Assembly (NCBI GenBank): GCA_016207515.1
Contig: JACQPN010000025.1
Location: 124,001 to 188,000, forward strand
Direction: 5' to 3'
Length of the DNA: 64,000 bases
Origin: Euryarchaeota archaeon
Lineage (GTDB): Archaea > Thermoplasmatota > SW-10-69-26 > JACQPN01
The position numbers and the translations under genes were made by a program. Below are positions 1,096-35,550 of the stretch, in pieces (the stretch's first letter is position 1; every line of letters starts with the position of its first letter). The notes beneath the pieces are model-generated. The model was not told the DNA's origin and did not search any database. It was given only the letters and a program-made list of their open reading frames with translations.

Positions 1096-1242
1096 AACCG
1101 CCAACGGGGACCGACAAGACGGTGTCTTCGAGGTCGCCGCAGGCGGCCGAACCCGGCGAGGATGGAGTGGAAGCCGAAGGCTTCCACGATACGCCCGCCT
1201 TTGGTGCAGCTTTGGCAAAGATGCAGTCCCGCCTCCCGGATT
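1096..1242. repeat. Composite direct repeat, copy 1 (interrupted), with a tRNA-Tyr 3'-end copy
   Basis: Two blocks are repeated from the region next to tRNA-Tyr. A 43-base block (1096-1138) matches 1282-1324 at 40 of 43 positions, and a 51-base block (1192-1242) matches 1321-1371 exactly. In the second copy the blocks abut; here a 53-base segment carrying a perfect hairpin (1167-1187) separates them. The 51-base block contains the last 16 bases of the tRNA gene (copied at 1227-1242), so this is a partial tRNA remnant, as found at attachment sites or after tandem duplication. Confidence 0.8.
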
Positions 1243-1281
1243 CTCGACAATTCGCTTCGCTCGTCCCCTTGGAATCCGGAT

Positions 1282-1371
1282 AACCGCCAAGGGGGACCGA
1301 GAAGACGGAGTCTTCGAGGTCGCCCGCCTTTGGTGCAGCTTTGGCAAAGATGCAGTCCCGCCTCCCGGATT
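1282..1371. repeat. Composite direct repeat, copy 2 (intact), running into tRNA-Tyr
   Basis: The 43-base block (1282-1324) and the exact 51-base block (1321-1371) are contiguous here and run into the 3' half of the tRNA gene. The 43-base block contains GAAGAC-GGA-GTCTTC, a small hairpin that may end the tRNA transcript. Confidence 0.8.
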
Positions 1372-1476
1372 TGAACCGGGCACCTCCTGATGACTGCGCG
1401 CCTGCGACGTGCTGATGTCGAAAGACCGTATGTGACTCTACAGTCAGGCGCTCTAACCAGACTGAGCTAAGGCGGG
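1356..1476 (-). tRNA. tRNA-Tyr (anticodon GTA) with a 46-base intron
   Basis: Read leftward, the acceptor arm CCCGCCT (1476-1470) pairs with AGGCGGG (1363-1357), followed by discriminator A at 1356; CCA is not encoded. The D arm has GCTC/GAGC, the anticodon stem is CCTGA/TCAGG, the loop carries GTA, and the T arm is CCCGG-TTCAAAT-CCGGG. The exons are 1476-1438 and 1391-1356. The intron, 1437-1392, sits between positions 37 and 38, and TGACTG before it pairs with CAGTCA at its end, as expected for a bulge-helix-bulge splice site. This intron position is the canonical archaeal one. Its 3' end is partly duplicated at 1227-1242. Confidence 0.95.
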
Positions 1477-5264: not shown

Positions 5265-6311
5265 TCAAGCGTGGTAAGCGTACGTGCTCCCGAACGTCAA
5301 CGTCGTCCCAAAGGCCGACGACGGCTGCGTGCGACTGAACCAGAGGTCCACTTTCCCGGCCCGGTGCGCGTGAGGGCAACCGCCCAAATGGGATCCTTGG
5401 CTGTCATGCGAGTTCCCGTCGTCCGACGCCGTCGAGGTGCAGGCAAGTAGCGACGGCATGTTGGAGATCTTGTTTACCGGCGGGGAACCGAATCCCGGGC
5501 TGCCGCGTATGTCGATGAGCATCGCGAAATTGTATGTCCTCGTATTGCCCCCTTCCCCGGCCGGATTGTGATCGGTGCCACCCGTCGGGCACGAGGGGAT
5601 GCTCGGGACGTCGCCCGGCGCGCACCCGTTCACGTACGTGTTGTCGCTGCCGTTCGGCATGCCCTTTGCGACGTTCAGCGTGGACGCCGTCGTGGTCCCG
5701 CGGTTGGTCGTCCCGCCGGCGAGGTTTCCCACCGAATCGGTCACGGTCGAGCCGATGGTCGTTACCCAGAAGTACCAGCCGCGCCCCCAATATTCGCGCG
5801 TCTCCCATGCGACGCCATTGGGGTCCGTGAAATGGTACTTGAAGGTGTTGAACGAGGATGGGAAGAGGTCGCCCGGATCCGGGCCTCCTTCCTCAATCGC
5901 CACCATGTAACAGTCCTGCGACGCGCAGGGCTCCTCCTCGATGCAAGGCCCGGTGCTGAAGGCCAGGAGCGCCGCATCGATGAAGAACTGGTCGTTGAAC
6001 CACGAGACGTTGTTGTGCCCGTCAAACGTGTCCGGGCAATGATGCAGTATCTCCCGCGCGTAACCCGCGACGGCCGAGAAATTATGTTCGTCGACGAAGG
6101 TAGCGTTGAAGTCGCTCTCCTTCACGATGACGCGGTATGTGGTGTGATCCTCGATGACGTTCCCACCGCAAAGCTGCGGATCGTAGAGGATCGGGCATTG
6201 CGTCTCGGTGAAGAAGTTCACCGGCCGCTCGCGCGTGAAGAACTCGGACGCCGAGACGGCCCCGACCGGGATGAAGAGCAATGCGACAAGCAAGGCTGAA
6301 GTGCGGCTCAC
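5265..6311 (-). CDS. Secreted protein, paralogue 1 of a three-member unknown family
   Basis: A 348-residue protein with a Sec signal peptide (about residues 1-21). Its family blocks are HTTYRVIV (56-63), NFSAVAGYAR (77-86), WFNDQFFIDAA (104-114), FTDPNGVAWETREY (161-174), TDHNPAG (246-252), YNFAMLIDI (260-268), DDGNSH (297-302), GCPHAHRAG (311-319) and VDLWFS (321-326). The same blocks occur in the protein at 7606-8589 and more weakly in the one at 9785-10627. Several Cys and a C-terminal His cluster suggest disulfides and perhaps metal binding. Start: GTG at 6311 with GGAGG 7 bases before it. It lies 43 bases after the regulator at 6355-6864, likely in one operon. I do not recognise the family. 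Confidence 0.85.
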   Translation of the reverse strand: MSRTSALLVALLFIPVGAVSASEFFTRERPVNFFTETQCPILYDPQLCGGNVIEDHTTYRVIVKESDFNATFVDEHNFSAVAGYAREILHHCPDTFDGHNNVSWFNDQFFIDAALLAFSTGPCIEEEPCASQDCYMVAIEEGGPDPGDLFPSSFNTFKYHFTDPNGVAWETREYWGRGWYFWVTTIGSTVTDSVGNLAGGTTNRGTTTASTLNVAKGMPNGSDNTYVNGCAPGDVPSIPSCPTGGTDHNPAGEGGNTRTYNFAMLIDIRGSPGFGSPPVNKISNMPSLLACTSTASDDGNSHDSQGSHLGGCPHAHRAGKVDLWFSRTQPSSAFGTTLTFGSTYAYHA

Positions 6312-6354
6312 CCTTTCGCCTCCTCAGCCTCCGTTCGCCCCATGGTGGCGCCGC

Positions 6355-6864
6355 CTACGGCTCTTTGAGCTTGGTCACGTTCTCAGGAAGGTAGGTGCGC
6401 AGTCGGTTCAAGGAATCGGTCAATTTGTCCTCGTCCGCCTGTAGGAAGCGGCCCTTACCGGCGCCGCGTTCGCGAACCAAGCGCGTATCGAAGAGTTTCC
6501 TCAAGTGCCACGCGATCGTGGGCGACGTGACGCCCAACTCGCGCTTCAACTCGACTCGCATGCAGTCCTTGTGCGCCTTGATGGCCCGAAGCACGCGGAC
6601 GGTCTCGTCGCTTTTCATGATGGCGAGGAAGCGTTTGTCCTCGTCGGAGAGGTCGGAGCGGGACTTGTAGTAGCGGACCTTGTTCCCGTCCACCATCCCG
6701 TTGATGAGCGCCTGTTCGGCGAGCTTCGCGAGATGATAGCTCGCGGTCGAATGGCTGATCTCGAGGGCCCCTGCCACTTCCCGTATCGAGAGGCCCGGCC
6801 TTTCCTGGACGAGCCGGTAGATCCTCAACCGGGTTGTCCCGCCGAGCGCGTCCAGGGACTGCAA
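6355..6864 (-). CDS. Tandem winged-helix transcription regulator (ArsR-like)
   Basis: A 169-residue protein with two winged helix-turn-helix domains in a row. The first spans about residues 8-68 (TRLRIYRLVQERPGLSIREV, then HSTASYHLAKL) and the second about 85-150 (VRVLRAIKAHKDC, then TSPTIAWHLRKL). It starts with TTG at 6864, two bases after the stop of the upstream membrane protein gene, with GGGAGG at the right distance, so the two are translationally coupled. The secreted paralogue at 5265-6311 follows 43 bases later. The arrangement suggests a regulator expressed with, and perhaps sensing through, its membrane partner; that role is inference. Confidence 0.85.
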   Translation of the reverse strand: MQSLDALGGTTRLRIYRLVQERPGLSIREVAGALEISHSTASYHLAKLAEQALINGMVDGNKVRYYKSRSDLSDEDKRFLAIMKSDETVRVLRAIKAHKDCMRVELKRELGVTSPTIAWHLRKLFDTRLVRERGAGKGRFLQADEDKLTDSLNRLRTYLPENVTKLKEP

Positions 6865-6865
6865 A

Positions 6866-7507
6866 TCAGCGCCTCCCGACGACGCTGAATCCTGTGGGTG
6901 TCGCCGGGGTGCGCCGTATCGCGACTAGTGTCGAGTCCTTGACGATGGTCCTTCTCAAGTTCTTATGAGTGAGATGGAGCTCCACCGGGCTTGCACCCTT
7001 GTAGACACCGAAGTTGACCTCACCATAGGCGTCGCGGACACTCTTCAATGCCCAGCGGCCCAAGCGGTAAACGATGTACATGATCATGAGGAACCGGCCG
7101 ACGCTCGACCAATCGACGTGCACCAACTCGGCGTCTTCCGTGATCGCCTGCCTGGGGCCTGACTGGCCGGGGGAACCGCGTCCCGCCGTCGATCCATCGT
7201 CCTCGCTTCCCGGTCCGATGCTCTTGTCAAGCCGTTGGATCCGGCCCGGGGTGAGAGCGACCGTCGCGTCGGGGCCCCTCTTTTGAGGCGCGGCGCCACC
7301 GTCGGGGGCGGGCAGCGAGACGCTTGAGCTTCCTCCACCCAGAGTCGAGATGCTATTGTCCGTACGCGACGACGTCGCGAGATTGTAGACGACGAAGCCG
7401 AAGAAGAGGAACAGGACGGCGTAGATCATGAACCGCCGGCGTCGTAGGACACGTAGGCGCACCCTCTCGAGGGCGTAAGTGCCTGTCCCGGACACGTTCG
7501 GACTCAT
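6866..7507 (-). CDS. Two-helix membrane protein of unknown function
   Basis: A 213-residue protein with a basic N-terminus and a first membrane helix at about residues 27-46 (FMIYAVLFLFFGFVVYNLA). A Gly/Ser/Pro-rich, low-complexity loop of about 85 residues is probably outside the cell. A second hydrophobic segment lies at about 136-152 (GRFLMIMYIVYRLGRW), followed by a basic cytoplasmic tail. No family is recognised. It is the first gene of a likely operon with the tandem winged-helix regulator and secreted paralogue 1. Archaea often pair a membrane protein with a one-component regulator, so a signalling role is possible but unproven. The ATG at 7507 has a weak GGTGAG site. Confidence 0.75.
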   Translation of the reverse strand: MSPNVSGTGTYALERVRLRVLRRRRFMIYAVLFLFFGFVVYNLATSSRTDNSISTLGGGSSSVSLPAPDGGAAPQKRGPDATVALTPGRIQRLDKSIGPGSEDDGSTAGRGSPGQSGPRQAITEDAELVHVDWSSVGRFLMIMYIVYRLGRWALKSVRDAYGEVNFGVYKGASPVELHLTHKNLRRTIVKDSTLVAIRRTPATPTGFSVVGRR

Positions 7508-7547
7508 CGTTTCTCACCGTTCTACTCGTGACTGTAAAGGATAGAAT

Positions 7548-7569
7548 GGAGGGGGTCACCCCCCCTCCA
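7548..7569 (-). terminator. Terminator hairpin after secreted paralogue 2
   Basis: TGGAGGGGG and CCCCCTCCA flank a short loop in this perfect inverted repeat. On the minus strand it is followed by a T/C-rich stretch. It separates the paralogue 2 transcript from the downstream membrane-protein operon. Confidence 0.65.
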
Positions 7570-7605
7570 GGGTTGTTCGATTCGCTTACACTAGCTTAGG
7601 GTCGC

Positions 7606-8589
7606 TTACACGTGGTAGGCGCCCGTGCTGGCGTAGTTGCGGACCAATCCAGCGCCCGCGGGTCCCGCCGTGTGGGAAAACCACAAGTCGACGGCTCCGG
7701 TGCGGTGGCTGTGGCTGCAGCCGTTCGGGTGAGCGCCCTGGCTCGCGTGGGAGTTCCCATCGTCCGAGGCCGGGACTATGCAACCGAGCGGGGTGCTCGC
7801 GTTCGTGATCTTGTCCTCAACAGCGCTGCCGGGACCGGCAACACTGCCGTGGATGTCGATGAGGACCACGAAGTTGTACGCTCGCACGTTCGGGCCAGCG
7901 CCGACCGGGTTGTGGTCAGTGCCGCCGCCGTCAGCGTCGGGGTCGGAGGCGCAAAGGCCATCGCCGGCCGAGCAACCGTTCACGGAGCTGCCGTCGCTGT
8001 CCCCGAGGTTCGGGACGGGCGCCGGGGCCGTGCCGACGTTCGACGTCGCGGGCGGGTTGGCGGCGTTGTTGGCCGCTGCGTCCTGCGTCGTCGCGCCGAT
8101 GGCGACTTCCCAGTAATAGCCTTCCGCGCATGAGAATTCACGGGTGGTCCACGCGACCACGTTGGGGTCCGTGTAACCGTAGGTGAACGTCACGCCGCAA
8201 AGGGTCATGAGGTCGGGGTCGATGTTCCCGGTCTCGGCCGCCTTGACGAAGCAACCGATGGTGCAGTCCTCGTTGACGACCACGACACAGGCGATGCTGT
8301 TCGCGGCGTCAATGAAGAACTGGTCGTTGAACCAGAGAACGCCGTTGTTCTGCGTCTGGGTACACGTCACAGTCCTGTCCAGGTGACGGGCAAATCCCGC
8401 GACCGCGGAGAAGTTGTGGCTCTCCGTGACGGTGTTGTTCGCTTCTCTTTCCCTAACGACGACCGCGTATGTCGTGTGGCCCTCGATGACCGTTCGCGGG
8501 GAAGTCCTGAACTCCGACGCGAAGGCTGTCGCGGGTACCACGAGCATCGCAGCAATCGCCAATATTGCTACAATCGTTTTTGCCTTCAT
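7606..8589 (-). CDS. Secreted protein, paralogue 2 of a three-member unknown family
   Basis: A 327-residue protein with a clear signal peptide (residues 1-24, ending AFA). It shares ordered blocks with paralogue 1: GHTTYAVVV (37-45), NFSAVAGFAR (59-68), WFNDQFFIDAA (86-96), YTDPNVVAWTTREF (139-152), TDHNPVG (224-230), YNFVVLIDI (238-246), DDGNSH (276-281), GCSHSHRTG (290-298) and VDLWFS (300-305). Both end in a short YxYH/AYHV-type tail. At least eight Cys occur in the mature part. A near-perfect GGAGGTGA site precedes the ATG at 8589, which suggests strong translation. It stands alone between two terminator-like hairpins. Function unknown. Confidence 0.87.
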   Translation of the reverse strand: MKAKTIVAILAIAAMLVVPATAFASEFRTSPRTVIEGHTTYAVVVREREANNTVTESHNFSAVAGFARHLDRTVTCTQTQNNGVLWFNDQFFIDAANSIACVVVVNEDCTIGCFVKAAETGNIDPDLMTLCGVTFTYGYTDPNVVAWTTREFSCAEGYYWEVAIGATTQDAAANNAANPPATSNVGTAPAPVPNLGDSDGSSVNGCSAGDGLCASDPDADGGGTDHNPVGAGPNVRAYNFVVLIDIHGSVAGPGSAVEDKITNASTPLGCIVPASDDGNSHASQGAHPNGCSHSHRTGAVDLWFSHTAGPAGAGLVRNYASTGAYHV

Positions 8590-8711
8590 TACTTCTTCAC
8601 CTCCTCTACGATCATGTTGTGATCGAAGAGAGCTGGAAAAATCGCCGACCTGATGGTCGGAGACCGGCTGACGGGCACTCGGGCCCGAGAATGAACCAAG
8701 AATGGGAGGCC

Positions 8712-8733
8712 CTTGGCGGGTTTCCCCGCCAAG
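8712..8733 (-). terminator. 9-bp hairpin with GAAA tetraloop after TrmB gene
   Basis: On the minus strand CTTGGCGGG-GAAA-CCCGCCAAG is a perfect stem capped by a stable GNRA loop. It lies about 140 bases beyond the stop of the TrmB-type gene at 8876. No T run follows, so it may end or stabilise that transcript, or sit in the leader of secreted paralogue 2. Confidence 0.5.
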
Positions 8734-8875
8734 GGGTGGTTGGTGTTAATATGCAAAGCCGGTTCTCGGCCTCCTCTCGACGCGTTGAATGTCATGCCCC
8801 TTACCTCCACGCTTGGCCCAGAAGATTCCCTGAGAGACATTGAAGGGTTCTCTGTAACCGGGGTGAGTGAAACAA

Positions 8876-9721
8876 TCACTGCGCCACCTCCTTGTCCGAC
8901 GCGGGGGCCAAGATGTCGTCGATGCGACGGGCGAGCTCCTGCGACGCGTCCCAGTTTGCCTTGACCGTGGCCTTCATGTCGGCGACGATCGCCCTGTCGT
9001 CCGACCAGATCGCGACGTCCTCACCCTTGAAGAGATGCTCATCGTCGGGCACGTAGTGACAGATGAGGACCTCCGCATCGTCGACTATGAGGGTCGCGCT
9101 ACCCGGTGTCTTCTCCGCGTAGTGGCGCACGCTTCCGAAGTGCGAAAACTCGGTGAGGGTGTCGACGTTGACGTTCGACACAGGGCACAGGAAGCGCACG
9201 TCGACACTCCCTTCGGCCTTCTCCCGGAGGATCGGCATGTAGTAGCTCATCCGCAAGGCCGTGTACTCGCTTCCGAGTTCGAGGATCTCCGCCTTGGCGC
9301 GGGCGATCATCTCGTACTTGCGGTTGACGACGTTCTTCCTACCCTTGAGGACGTTGAAGCTCCCGGCCCGGTCGAGGCTCACGGGTGCTTGGTGGCTCAA
9401 CTGGGCCGAGATGAGTTTCTTGTCTTCCTCTATCTGGCGCAGTTTCGCCTTGTACTGGCGCTCGAAGGATCGGAGGTACTCGTCGAAGGGGACGACCTCG
9501 TACTTCTTCGGCCTCTCCGGGATAATCTCCGTGAGCTGCTTCTGATGGAGGTCGTCGAGTATACTGTATATCTTGGTGCGGGGCACCCGGCTGAGGTTCG
9601 CGATGTCCCTGGCGGTCGCCACCCCGAGGTCAAGTAGCGCCAGGTAGGTCCTGGCCTCGTACTCGCTGAGGCCATACTCCAGCATCTTGTCAAGTCTGTC
9701 TTTCGCGGTCGGATTCGTCAT
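8876..9721 (-). CDS. TrmB-family transcription regulator A
   Basis: A 281-residue protein. Residues 8-75 form a TrmB-type winged helix with ARTYLALLDLG, the recognition helix LSRVPRTKIYSILDDL and the wing IPERPKKYEVVPF. A coiled-coil linker (about 78-105) follows, then a C-terminal domain like the effector-binding part of TrmB proteins. TrmB regulators usually sense sugars, though many have other roles. It is a clear sister of the protein at 11113-11919. I chose ATG at 9721, preceded by AAGGTG and the spacer TTGCCGAA, which recurs in this block. The gene lies between two secreted paralogues, so control of them is the obvious hypothesis. Confidence 0.9.
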   Translation of the reverse strand: MTNPTAKDRLDKMLEYGLSEYEARTYLALLDLGVATARDIANLSRVPRTKIYSILDDLHQKQLTEIIPERPKKYEVVPFDEYLRSFERQYKAKLRQIEEDKKLISAQLSHQAPVSLDRAGSFNVLKGRKNVVNRKYEMIARAKAEILELGSEYTALRMSYYMPILREKAEGSVDVRFLCPVSNVNVDTLTEFSHFGSVRHYAEKTPGSATLIVDDAEVLICHYVPDDEHLFKGEDVAIWSDDRAIVADMKATVKANWDASQELARRIDDILAPASDKEVAQ

Positions 9722-9784
9722 TTTCGGCAACACCTTTTTTGATTCTTACTACGACTTTTTTGGCAAAGTTTGAATGGTAACTTC

Positions 9785-10627
9785 TTACCCGCCGCATTGC
9801 GGGCAGTCCTTCGTCTTGGGGGTCCCGCCGACCCAGAGGTCCACCTCGTAGACTTCGTGCGAGTGGTCCCCATCGGAGGCCTCGTGGCCTTCGTTCGTGT
9901 AGTAGGGTGGATCCACCGGGTAGGTAGAGTTCGGCCCCGTGCGGTTGTGGTTCACCGTGGCATCAGGGCCCGGGTGTGTCCAGCCGCCCGGGGCGGCGAG
10001 GTCCTGCTTAGTGAACTTGCATGTGTCCACAATCGTTACGAAATTGTAGTACACGTGGGGGTCGGAACCGGGGAAATTGTCGACGTCGGCTCCCTTGATC
10101 TCGACGACCCAAGTGTGGAAAATCGCCGTCTGACTTCGGGCCTTTGCGCCGGCGATTCCTGGCGTTGTGACCCCGGGATCGGTATCGACGAGCTCCTCGT
10201 CCCAGGTTTCGCTACTCGGTGACGGTGGCGTGATCGAATTCGAGGTTCCCTCGTACGTGTACTCCGTCACGTTCCAGTTCCTGCCGTTCGGGTCCGTGAA
10301 GTTGTAGAATACACCGGTCGCTTCGAGGACTGCATCCCTCGGGTCGCTCGCGTTCTTCTGCGTCGCGTAGAGCGTTCCGCCGGCTGCATCGAACTCGAGG
10401 AGCACCTGGTCGTTGAACCACATGATCTTGGTCCGCACGATCCCCGCTATCGCGCCTCTACATTGGTCGAAGCCCTCGACGTCGGTGAAGAGCGTGTGCC
10501 CGGTCATCGCTACATCTGACCAGTGGACACCGTGCCCGAGCGCCTGTGGGACGCTTAGGAGCGCTATCGCTCCGAGCATCAACAGTATCTTTCGGCGTTC
10601 GTTTGGCAACTTTTCACTCTCCAGCAT
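9785..10627 (-). CDS. Secreted protein, divergent paralogue 3
   Basis: A 280-residue protein with an N-terminal hydrophobic segment (about residues 14-31). It keeps parts of the family blocks: MWFNDQ (69-74), FTDPNGRNWNVTEY (110-123), YYNFVTIVD, SDGDHSH (about 254-260) and EVDLW. It lacks the NFSAVAG block and much of the Cys content, and ends in CPQCGG, a CxxC motif not seen in the other two. The mature start GHGVHW and the late HSH cluster make it His-rich. It lies downstream of two small ORFs and TrmB gene B on the same strand. The start at ATG 10627 has no strong ribosome-binding site. Confidence 0.8.
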   Translation of the reverse strand: MLESEKLPNERRKILLMLGAIALLSVPQALGHGVHWSDVAMTGHTLFTDVEGFDQCRGAIAGIVRTKIMWFNDQVLLEFDAAGGTLYATQKNASDPRDAVLEATGVFYNFTDPNGRNWNVTEYTYEGTSNSITPPSPSSETWDEELVDTDPGVTTPGIAGAKARSQTAIFHTWVVEIKGADVDNFPGSDPHVYYNFVTIVDTCKFTKQDLAAPGGWTHPGPDATVNHNRTGPNSTYPVDPPYYTNEGHEASDGDHSHEVYEVDLWVGGTPKTKDCPQCGG

Positions 10628-35465: not shown

Positions 35466-35550
35466 CAGGCATCAGTCTCCTTGTGACCCTCGGCCGCGAT
35501 GGACTCGCCTTGCTCGTCCATCCGGCCTCGCATATCGCGTCGGCCTCGGC

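Follow-up and report, generated by a model that had tools for sequence, protein, structure and literature searches.

A repeated tRNA-Tyr end in an archaeal genome and its resemblance to hairpin-bearing units at other tRNA gene ends

The repeat beside the tRNA-Tyr gene in the 64 000 nt stretch of archaeal DNA analysed here (the window) is linked to a recurring arrangement at the ends of tRNA genes, which was found in six of ten archaeal genomes sampled and is matched in Escherichia coli and in three viral contigs. We suggest, with a probability of roughly 0.4, that the locus is a hairpin-capped unit resembling the RtT repeats of E. coli, inserted at the DNA level by way of a folded single strand, a mechanism that we infer. 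Mobile DNA enters genomes mainly at the ends of tRNA genes, and copies of tRNA tails are usually taken as integration scars; small units that duplicate tRNA ends with no obvious element would change the reading of such copies, and archaeal units would give the RtT repeats of E. coli relatives with which their origin could be tested. The genome to which the window belongs (G000) is a bin of 25 contigs that total 2.67 Mb, with a completeness of 98%, and the window is C25:124001–188000.

The tRNA-Tyr gene, which runs from 1476 to 1356, was missed by ARAGORN as run and found by the Rfam model, its anticodon (GTA) and intron being read by eye. Its tail, here called T1 (1356–1371), covers the discriminator, the acceptor strand, the T-stem strand and some of the T-loop. 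An earlier reading made from the letters of the DNA (the sequence-only reading) had described an exact 51-base repeat that includes the last 16 bases of the gene, and self-comparison returned just this (1192–1242 and 1321–1371, 100% identity): the last 16 nt of the tRNA plus the 35 nt downstream, with an offset of 129 nt between the copies and a gap of 113 nt between the two tail copies. We infer that an exact 51 nt copy at this distance is not chance, the search itself giving no probability. The second repeat of that reading, a 43-base block with three differences, was likewise recovered (1096–1138 and 1282–1324, 93%), as was the 53-base hairpin-bearing segment that separates the two blocks in the distal copy (1139–1191, hairpin at 1167–1187). 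In the tRNA-proximal copy, where the blocks had been said to abut, they do adjoin but with a 4 nt overlap (1321–1324). The parts of the locus, and one further hairpin of the same family, are as follows.

1356–1476, minus strand: tRNA-Tyr, intron-bearing (Rfam RF00005, 54.4 bits)
1321–1371, minus strand: first copy of the 51 nt repeat, made up of the 16 nt tail and the 35 nt beyond it (self-comparison)
1282–1324, minus strand: first copy of the 43 nt block (self-comparison), containing the hairpin GAAGACTCCGTCTTC (by eye)
1273–1296, minus strand: weak inverted partial tail copy, T' (score 15.9, shuffle p 0.318, 23rd among 48 tails; by itself not significant)
1243–1270, minus strand: core hairpin region with AAGGGGACGAGCGAAGCG, a relative of the C-hairpin family (17.1 bits with model R1; window-wide E 0.027)
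1227–1242, minus strand: T2, an exact second tail copy that starts in the T-loop (self-comparison, tail-copy scan)
1192–1226, minus strand: repeat of the 35 nt next to the tRNA's 3' end, the start of a second, degenerate unit (self-comparison)
1139–1191, no strand assigned: 53 nt insert with a perfect 9 bp hairpin at 1167–1187, GAA triloop and CGCC on both sides (hairpin by eye)
1096–1138, minus strand: second copy of the 43 nt block (self-comparison)
35489–35531, minus strand: further C hairpin of the same family, away from tRNAs (model R1, 40.9 bits, E 1.1e-8; one of the model's own 24 training rows)

The 51 nt copies and the 43 nt blocks repeat in order, as adjacent direct copies, which is the arrangement of a tandem duplication. 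The local tandem duplication that had been offered as the alternative to an attachment site accounts for the second copy in the window (the unit plus 35 nt) but not for the same anatomy at other tRNAs. Two parts of the locus also have relatives elsewhere in the genome, which the sequence-only reading had not noted: 1236–1285 is similar, at 82% over 50 nt (E 3.5e-5), to a unit that adjoins a different tRNA, and the 53 nt insert is similar, at 89% over 36 nt (E 6.6e-5), to a segment some 220 nt upstream of the tRNA at C9:67436.

A search of the genome with 661 nt around the locus gave a second tRNA with a repeated 3' end beside a similar hairpin. All tRNA genes were then compared by a single test, in which the last 30 nt of each tRNA are aligned with the 300 nt downstream of its own gene and of every other tRNA gene, a score of 24 or more counting as a copy. 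There were 52 tRNA matches in G000, from which two partial ones were dropped (they were kept in the hairpin scans described below), and 24 of the remaining 50 genes have a copy of their own tail downstream, against 90 of 2450 other-pair comparisons; two of the 24 are short copies that start less than 30 nt from the gene (C9:67436 and C19:27236). The tRNA's own tail was found in the 200 nt upstream of none of the 50 genes, and copies of the tRNA's own 5' end were found upstream of seven (control 11/2450). Chance is ruled out by the other-pair, upstream and shuffle controls. In nine further genomes the samples were partial and biased to high-scoring tRNAs (30 of 43 matches in G001, 30/39 in G004, 30/41 in G005, 26/42 in each of G002 and G010, 20/31 in G006, 25/41 in G029, 26/44 in G049 and 10/43 in G074), and the other-pair controls gave 0.7–2.5%. 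Five of these genomes lie above control: three of the same order (G001 4/30, G002 5/26, G004 5/30), one of the same class (G005 9/30) and one of the same phylum (G010 4/26, one of the four being a neighbouring tRNA). Four do not, namely G006 (0/20, and of the same family as G005), G029 (0/25), G074 (0/10) and G049, where the one hit among 26 is a neighbouring tRNA. Copies of the 5' end were seen at 4/30 tRNAs in G005, all four of which also have a 3' copy, at 3/30 in G001, 2/26 in G002, 1/30 in G004 and 1/26 in each of G010 and G049, and at none in the G006, G029 and G074 samples. Comparison with relatives, by which the sequence-only reading had proposed to decide its case, covered four tRNA-Tyr loci of the same order: the one in G001 has a 13 nt repeat just below threshold (score 23) and the other three have none by eye in the stretches viewed. 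Relatives of the neighbouring proC at five loci gave no empty site, the nearest, in a Euryarchaeota bin, being 56% identical and beside a tRNA-Thr.

Anatomy was studied in a set of 48 units from six genomes, which leaves out the two short copies of G000 and the neighbouring-tRNA copy of G010. The typical unit runs in the order T1, hairpin A, T', hairpin C (at the apex, marked by tandem G·A mismatches), T2; some loci, the window included, have two or more such units in tandem, and at 5' ends the mirror image is found. The inner break lies 16–19 nt from the 3' end, that is in the T-loop, in 24/48 units and the outer end within −1 to +4 of the discriminator in 28/48, the others extending further, often since a second unit follows; at 5' ends, 8 of 18 copies in the six genomes end at nt 22–26, in the D arm. 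The inverted partial tail copy T', which lies between the gene and T2, reaches a score of at least 28 in 13/48 units (17/2256 control pairs) and of at least 24 in 21/48 (133/2256), and by shuffling it has p < 0.01 in 26 units and not in the other 22. Where the tail has TTCGAA, GATGAG, which leaves the helix with a tandem G·A mismatch, is present in 8/25 spacers (0.62 expected by shuffling) and the perfect complement GATTCGA in 2/25; where the tail has TTCAAA, GATGAG is found in 0/19 and the perfect complement in 7/19. Thirty units have a clear T'. Over their 427 positions T2 departs from T1 at 10 and T' at 34, and since T' follows T1 at 8 of the 10 sites at which T2 and T1 differ, and T2 at only one, there is no sign of co-evolution between T' and T2. 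The 5' acceptor strand pairs better with T1 in seven of the 48 units, with T2 in none and equally well in 41. The possibility that the unit is an intron in the T-loop, T2 being the functional 3' end, was rejected on this ground, although MFE folds often join the 5' acceptor strand to T2 rather than to T1.

Hairpin C has a strand. When it was picked by its fixed letters alone (GACGA..AGTC) near G000 tRNAs, 24 instances within 300 nt downstream were on the tRNA strand and one on the other, and upstream ten were on the opposite strand and seven on the tRNA strand. At least three of the next four base pairs form in 21/24 of the downstream tRNA-strand set and 10/10 of the upstream opposite-strand set (0.15 expected by chance), and in 3/7 of the upstream tRNA-strand set. 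Tandem G·A hairpins in G000 were also counted by a scan of their own, which gave 22 on the same strand and three on the opposite strand downstream (0.2 after shuffling) and two and 12, respectively, upstream, so that the hairpins face outward from the tRNA at both gene ends. Counts elsewhere, given as same/opposite strand downstream and then upstream, were 3/0 and 0/4 in G001, 2/1 and 0/2 in G002, 0/1 and 0/0 in G004, 4/2 and 0/0 in G005 and 1/1 and 0/1 in G010, with no such hairpins near tRNAs in G006, G029, G049 or G074. The covariation value of the stems (0.457 against 0.096 shuffled) is circular, the rows having been picked beforehand by a scan that demands most of those pairs, and the pairing counts by fixed letters are relied on in its place. 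Model R1, built from 24 hairpins, has 67 matches in the genome, of which 37 lie within 600 nt of a tRNA (about 1.7 expected, an enrichment biased by training hairpins that came mostly from near tRNAs) and 30 lie farther away. The 37 comprise 21 on the same strand and one on the opposite strand downstream, 12 opposite and one same upstream, and two inside tRNA-like genes. Across 389 genomes of the phylum, with 16 candidates per genome scored, at least five have a match, our own included.

The nearest known counterpart is the RtT repeat (RF00391) of E. coli K-12, where the tyrV tail recurs at +159, +337 and +515 as 19 nt with the encoded CCA, starting in the T-loop. Each unit of the tyrTV locus contains GGGGAAGGATGAGAA, the inverted tail with TTCGAA changed to TGAGAA (p 0.004), and a tandem G·A hairpin (by eye). 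The two systems have in common tandem units after a tRNA, each closing with a copy of that tRNA's tail. For the inverted tail copy, p is 0.004 in E. coli, below 0.01 in 26/48 archaeal units and 0.318 in the window. They differ in that E. coli was checked at this locus only, while the archaeal genome has copies at 24/50 tRNAs, at both gene ends and with other hairpin sequences. At E ≤ 1 the Rfam model for RF00391 had no match among 12 archaeal unit loci (the E. coli control gave four matches of 133–138 bits), and it had none in the window at gathering score; the window unit has the architecture of the E. coli RtT repeats but by covariance model it is no member of RF00391. In the literature searched we recognised no description of such tRNA-end units.

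A pattern of T arm plus GGATGAGAACC was matched by three viral contigs and by none with a scrambled version, and all three carry, by eye, a tail, its inverted copy, hairpins and a tail copy. One (L365) has a whole tRNA by ARAGORN and the other two (L366 and L367) the tail alone; in L367 a tyrosine recombinase gene lies beside the tail and units, as expected of a prophage border, and the units of all three may be host sequence beside integrated virus. The 6321 nt contig L366 has by eye a Zot-like, filamentous-phage-like protein, and in it an RtT-like unit comes after a tRNA tail. The pattern GGATGAGAACC..GGTTCGA without the tail is mostly chance (20 viral contigs against 17 for the scramble, with flanking repeats in 2/20 and 0/17). 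A 40-mer of the window repeat had no match in the viral contigs, and the C-hairpin pattern had one, which resembles coding sequence.

On the reading that we favour, a folded single strand (hairpin T'–C–T2) would enter the gene as DNA at the T-loop or the D arm and in doing so would duplicate the gene end, so that the tRNA stays intact. T1 would remain the working copy and T2 would be free to decay; the tandem G·A pairs would let only one strand fold, and the tail copies would permit unequal exchange, by which units could multiply or shrink. The 5' units lie on the strand antisense to the tRNA, and the cause should therefore act on DNA. That the arms match each tRNA favours local copying, while the recurrence of the hairpin and the TTCGAA/GATGAG rule favour recognition of a structure, and we count for insertion that GATGAG occurs in the E. 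coli unit as well. Several results count against it. Neither a Y1 transposase nor a Cas1 was found in the genome bin. T' is locus-specific and would not be brought by a unit jumping between tRNAs, so some local copying must occur; moreover T' has p ≥ 0.01 in 22/48 units and is not significant in the window, and G006 has no tail copy among its 20 tRNAs sampled. The lack of T'–T2 co-evolution, the 30 of 67 C-hairpin matches more than 600 nt from a tRNA and the frequent pairing of T2 with the 5' acceptor strand in MFE folds also weigh on this side. A wider claim, which we hold to be doubtful, is that RtT-like units form a widespread non-coding class of Bacteria, their viruses and Archaea at both tRNA gene ends, in which a G·A-marked folded strand would enter the T-loop or D arm and copy the gene end twice, once inverted, while the tRNA survives; the tyrT repeats of E. 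coli would be one member.

The nearest rival to folded-strand insertion, although in itself rather unlikely, is template switching at replication, in which the growing strand would fold back on the palindromic T or D arm and copy the end backwards (T') and then forwards (T2), a by-product of mutation with no element involved. It would account for arms that match each tRNA's own end, for the direct–inverted–direct order, for outward polarity on both strands and for the apparent protein gene end at C4:12413 that by eye has the same pattern. It does not predict that the C hairpin should recur with stems whose letters change while pairing is kept, nor the recurrent change of TTCGAA to TGAGAA, nor the same anatomy in E. 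coli.

Less likely again is a functional RNA, that is, trailer hairpins that might have a role within the tRNA transcript, such as in 3' processing, in stability or as a released RNA like RttR, the rttR of E. coli being an annotated small RNA. The paired stems of hairpin C with their changing letters and the position of the downstream hairpins on the transcript strand speak for such a function, but the units at 5' ends, being antisense to the tRNA, cannot be explained in this way; about half of the tRNAs manage without a unit, and T2 and T' drift independently.

Remnants of attachment sites seem to us improbable to a slightly greater degree. Here tyrosine-recombinase elements would have integrated at the T-loop or, if of the pTN3 type, in the 5' half, and been deleted to leave tail copies and hairpin-rich ends. 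A locus-specific inverted copy is not known as a part of attachment sites. According to PMC8371274, the T stem-loop and 3' end are among three tRNA regions used by integrases, the archaeal ones targeting the T stem-loop and pTN3-like ones the 5' half. In this respect the old attachment site of the sequence-only reading is supported, since the duplicated part runs from the T-loop to past the discriminator (1227–1242/1356–1371, 16 nt) with the gene left intact and the break is often in the T-loop; 14 of 18 5' copies also reach upstream of nt 1, seven of them by at least 22 nt, and L367 has its integrase gene beside tail and units. A single decayed integration at tRNA-Tyr is not supported: tail copies at 24/50 tRNAs, which also dispose of a lone attachment site, mirror 5' copies at 7/50 and often inverted copies and a recurring hairpin stand against it. 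PF00589 (tyrosine recombinase) has five matches in the genome at E ≤ 0.001 and none in the window. Four recombinase genes (C13:3905, C5:81089, C18:3277 and C25:338297) lie 117–290 nt 3' of tRNA genes and are likely integrated elements, and one of the tRNAs that they adjoin (C18:2915) has a 5' copy, but none of the four tRNAs has a 3' tail copy within 300 nt or a convincing distant copy in the flanking stretches examined. The 3' units themselves end 56–298 nt from the gene and carry no integrase. The likeness to attachment sites is set against copies with no element between them, an inverted copy with hairpins, and occurrence at about half of the tRNAs examined.

Casposon or Cas1 integration (PF01867) and a REP/RAYT system with its Y1 transposase (PF01797) were both rejected, each having no match at E ≤ 0.01 in the 98% complete bin. 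Integron attC sites are palindromic hairpins that fold on one strand only and occur in tandem arrays, and in this they resemble the present units, which differ in that no cassettes were seen and the arms match the neighbouring tRNA. REP/BIME palindromes are short, transposase-free repeats. The small mobile repeats (SMRs) of Haloquadratum, described in PMC3119063 as transposase-free and with a target preference, are similar to them and to our units in this, but the units here are bound to tRNA ends with tail copies.

Some minor observations were made alongside. Between ORFs at C21:120650–120860 (L005, L319), with the closest tRNA match some 18 kb away, is an array of alternating hairpins with three C hairpins. 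At C4:12200–12460 (L346) two A–C hairpin units stand at the 3' end of the apparent protein gene, with arms that by eye copy its last bases. Class II tRNA-like genes with odd anticodons (CAT, GAA, CTA and CCA by eye) were seen at C12:158450–158900, C12:166799–168594 and C9:75095–75220 (L088, L089, L092, L339); those on C12 have similar upstream sequence in common, and three of the genes have a two-hairpin insertion near nt 9–10, which would make them intron-bearing or pseudogenes. In the window, beyond the repeat, 432–662 on the minus strand encodes a small ribbon-helix-helix protein (PF01402), and 5265–10627 holds three minus-strand ORFs (5265–6311, 7606–8589 and 9785–10627) that by eye resemble one another, sharing a WFNDQ motif, with regulator-like ORFs, also by eye, between and beside them.
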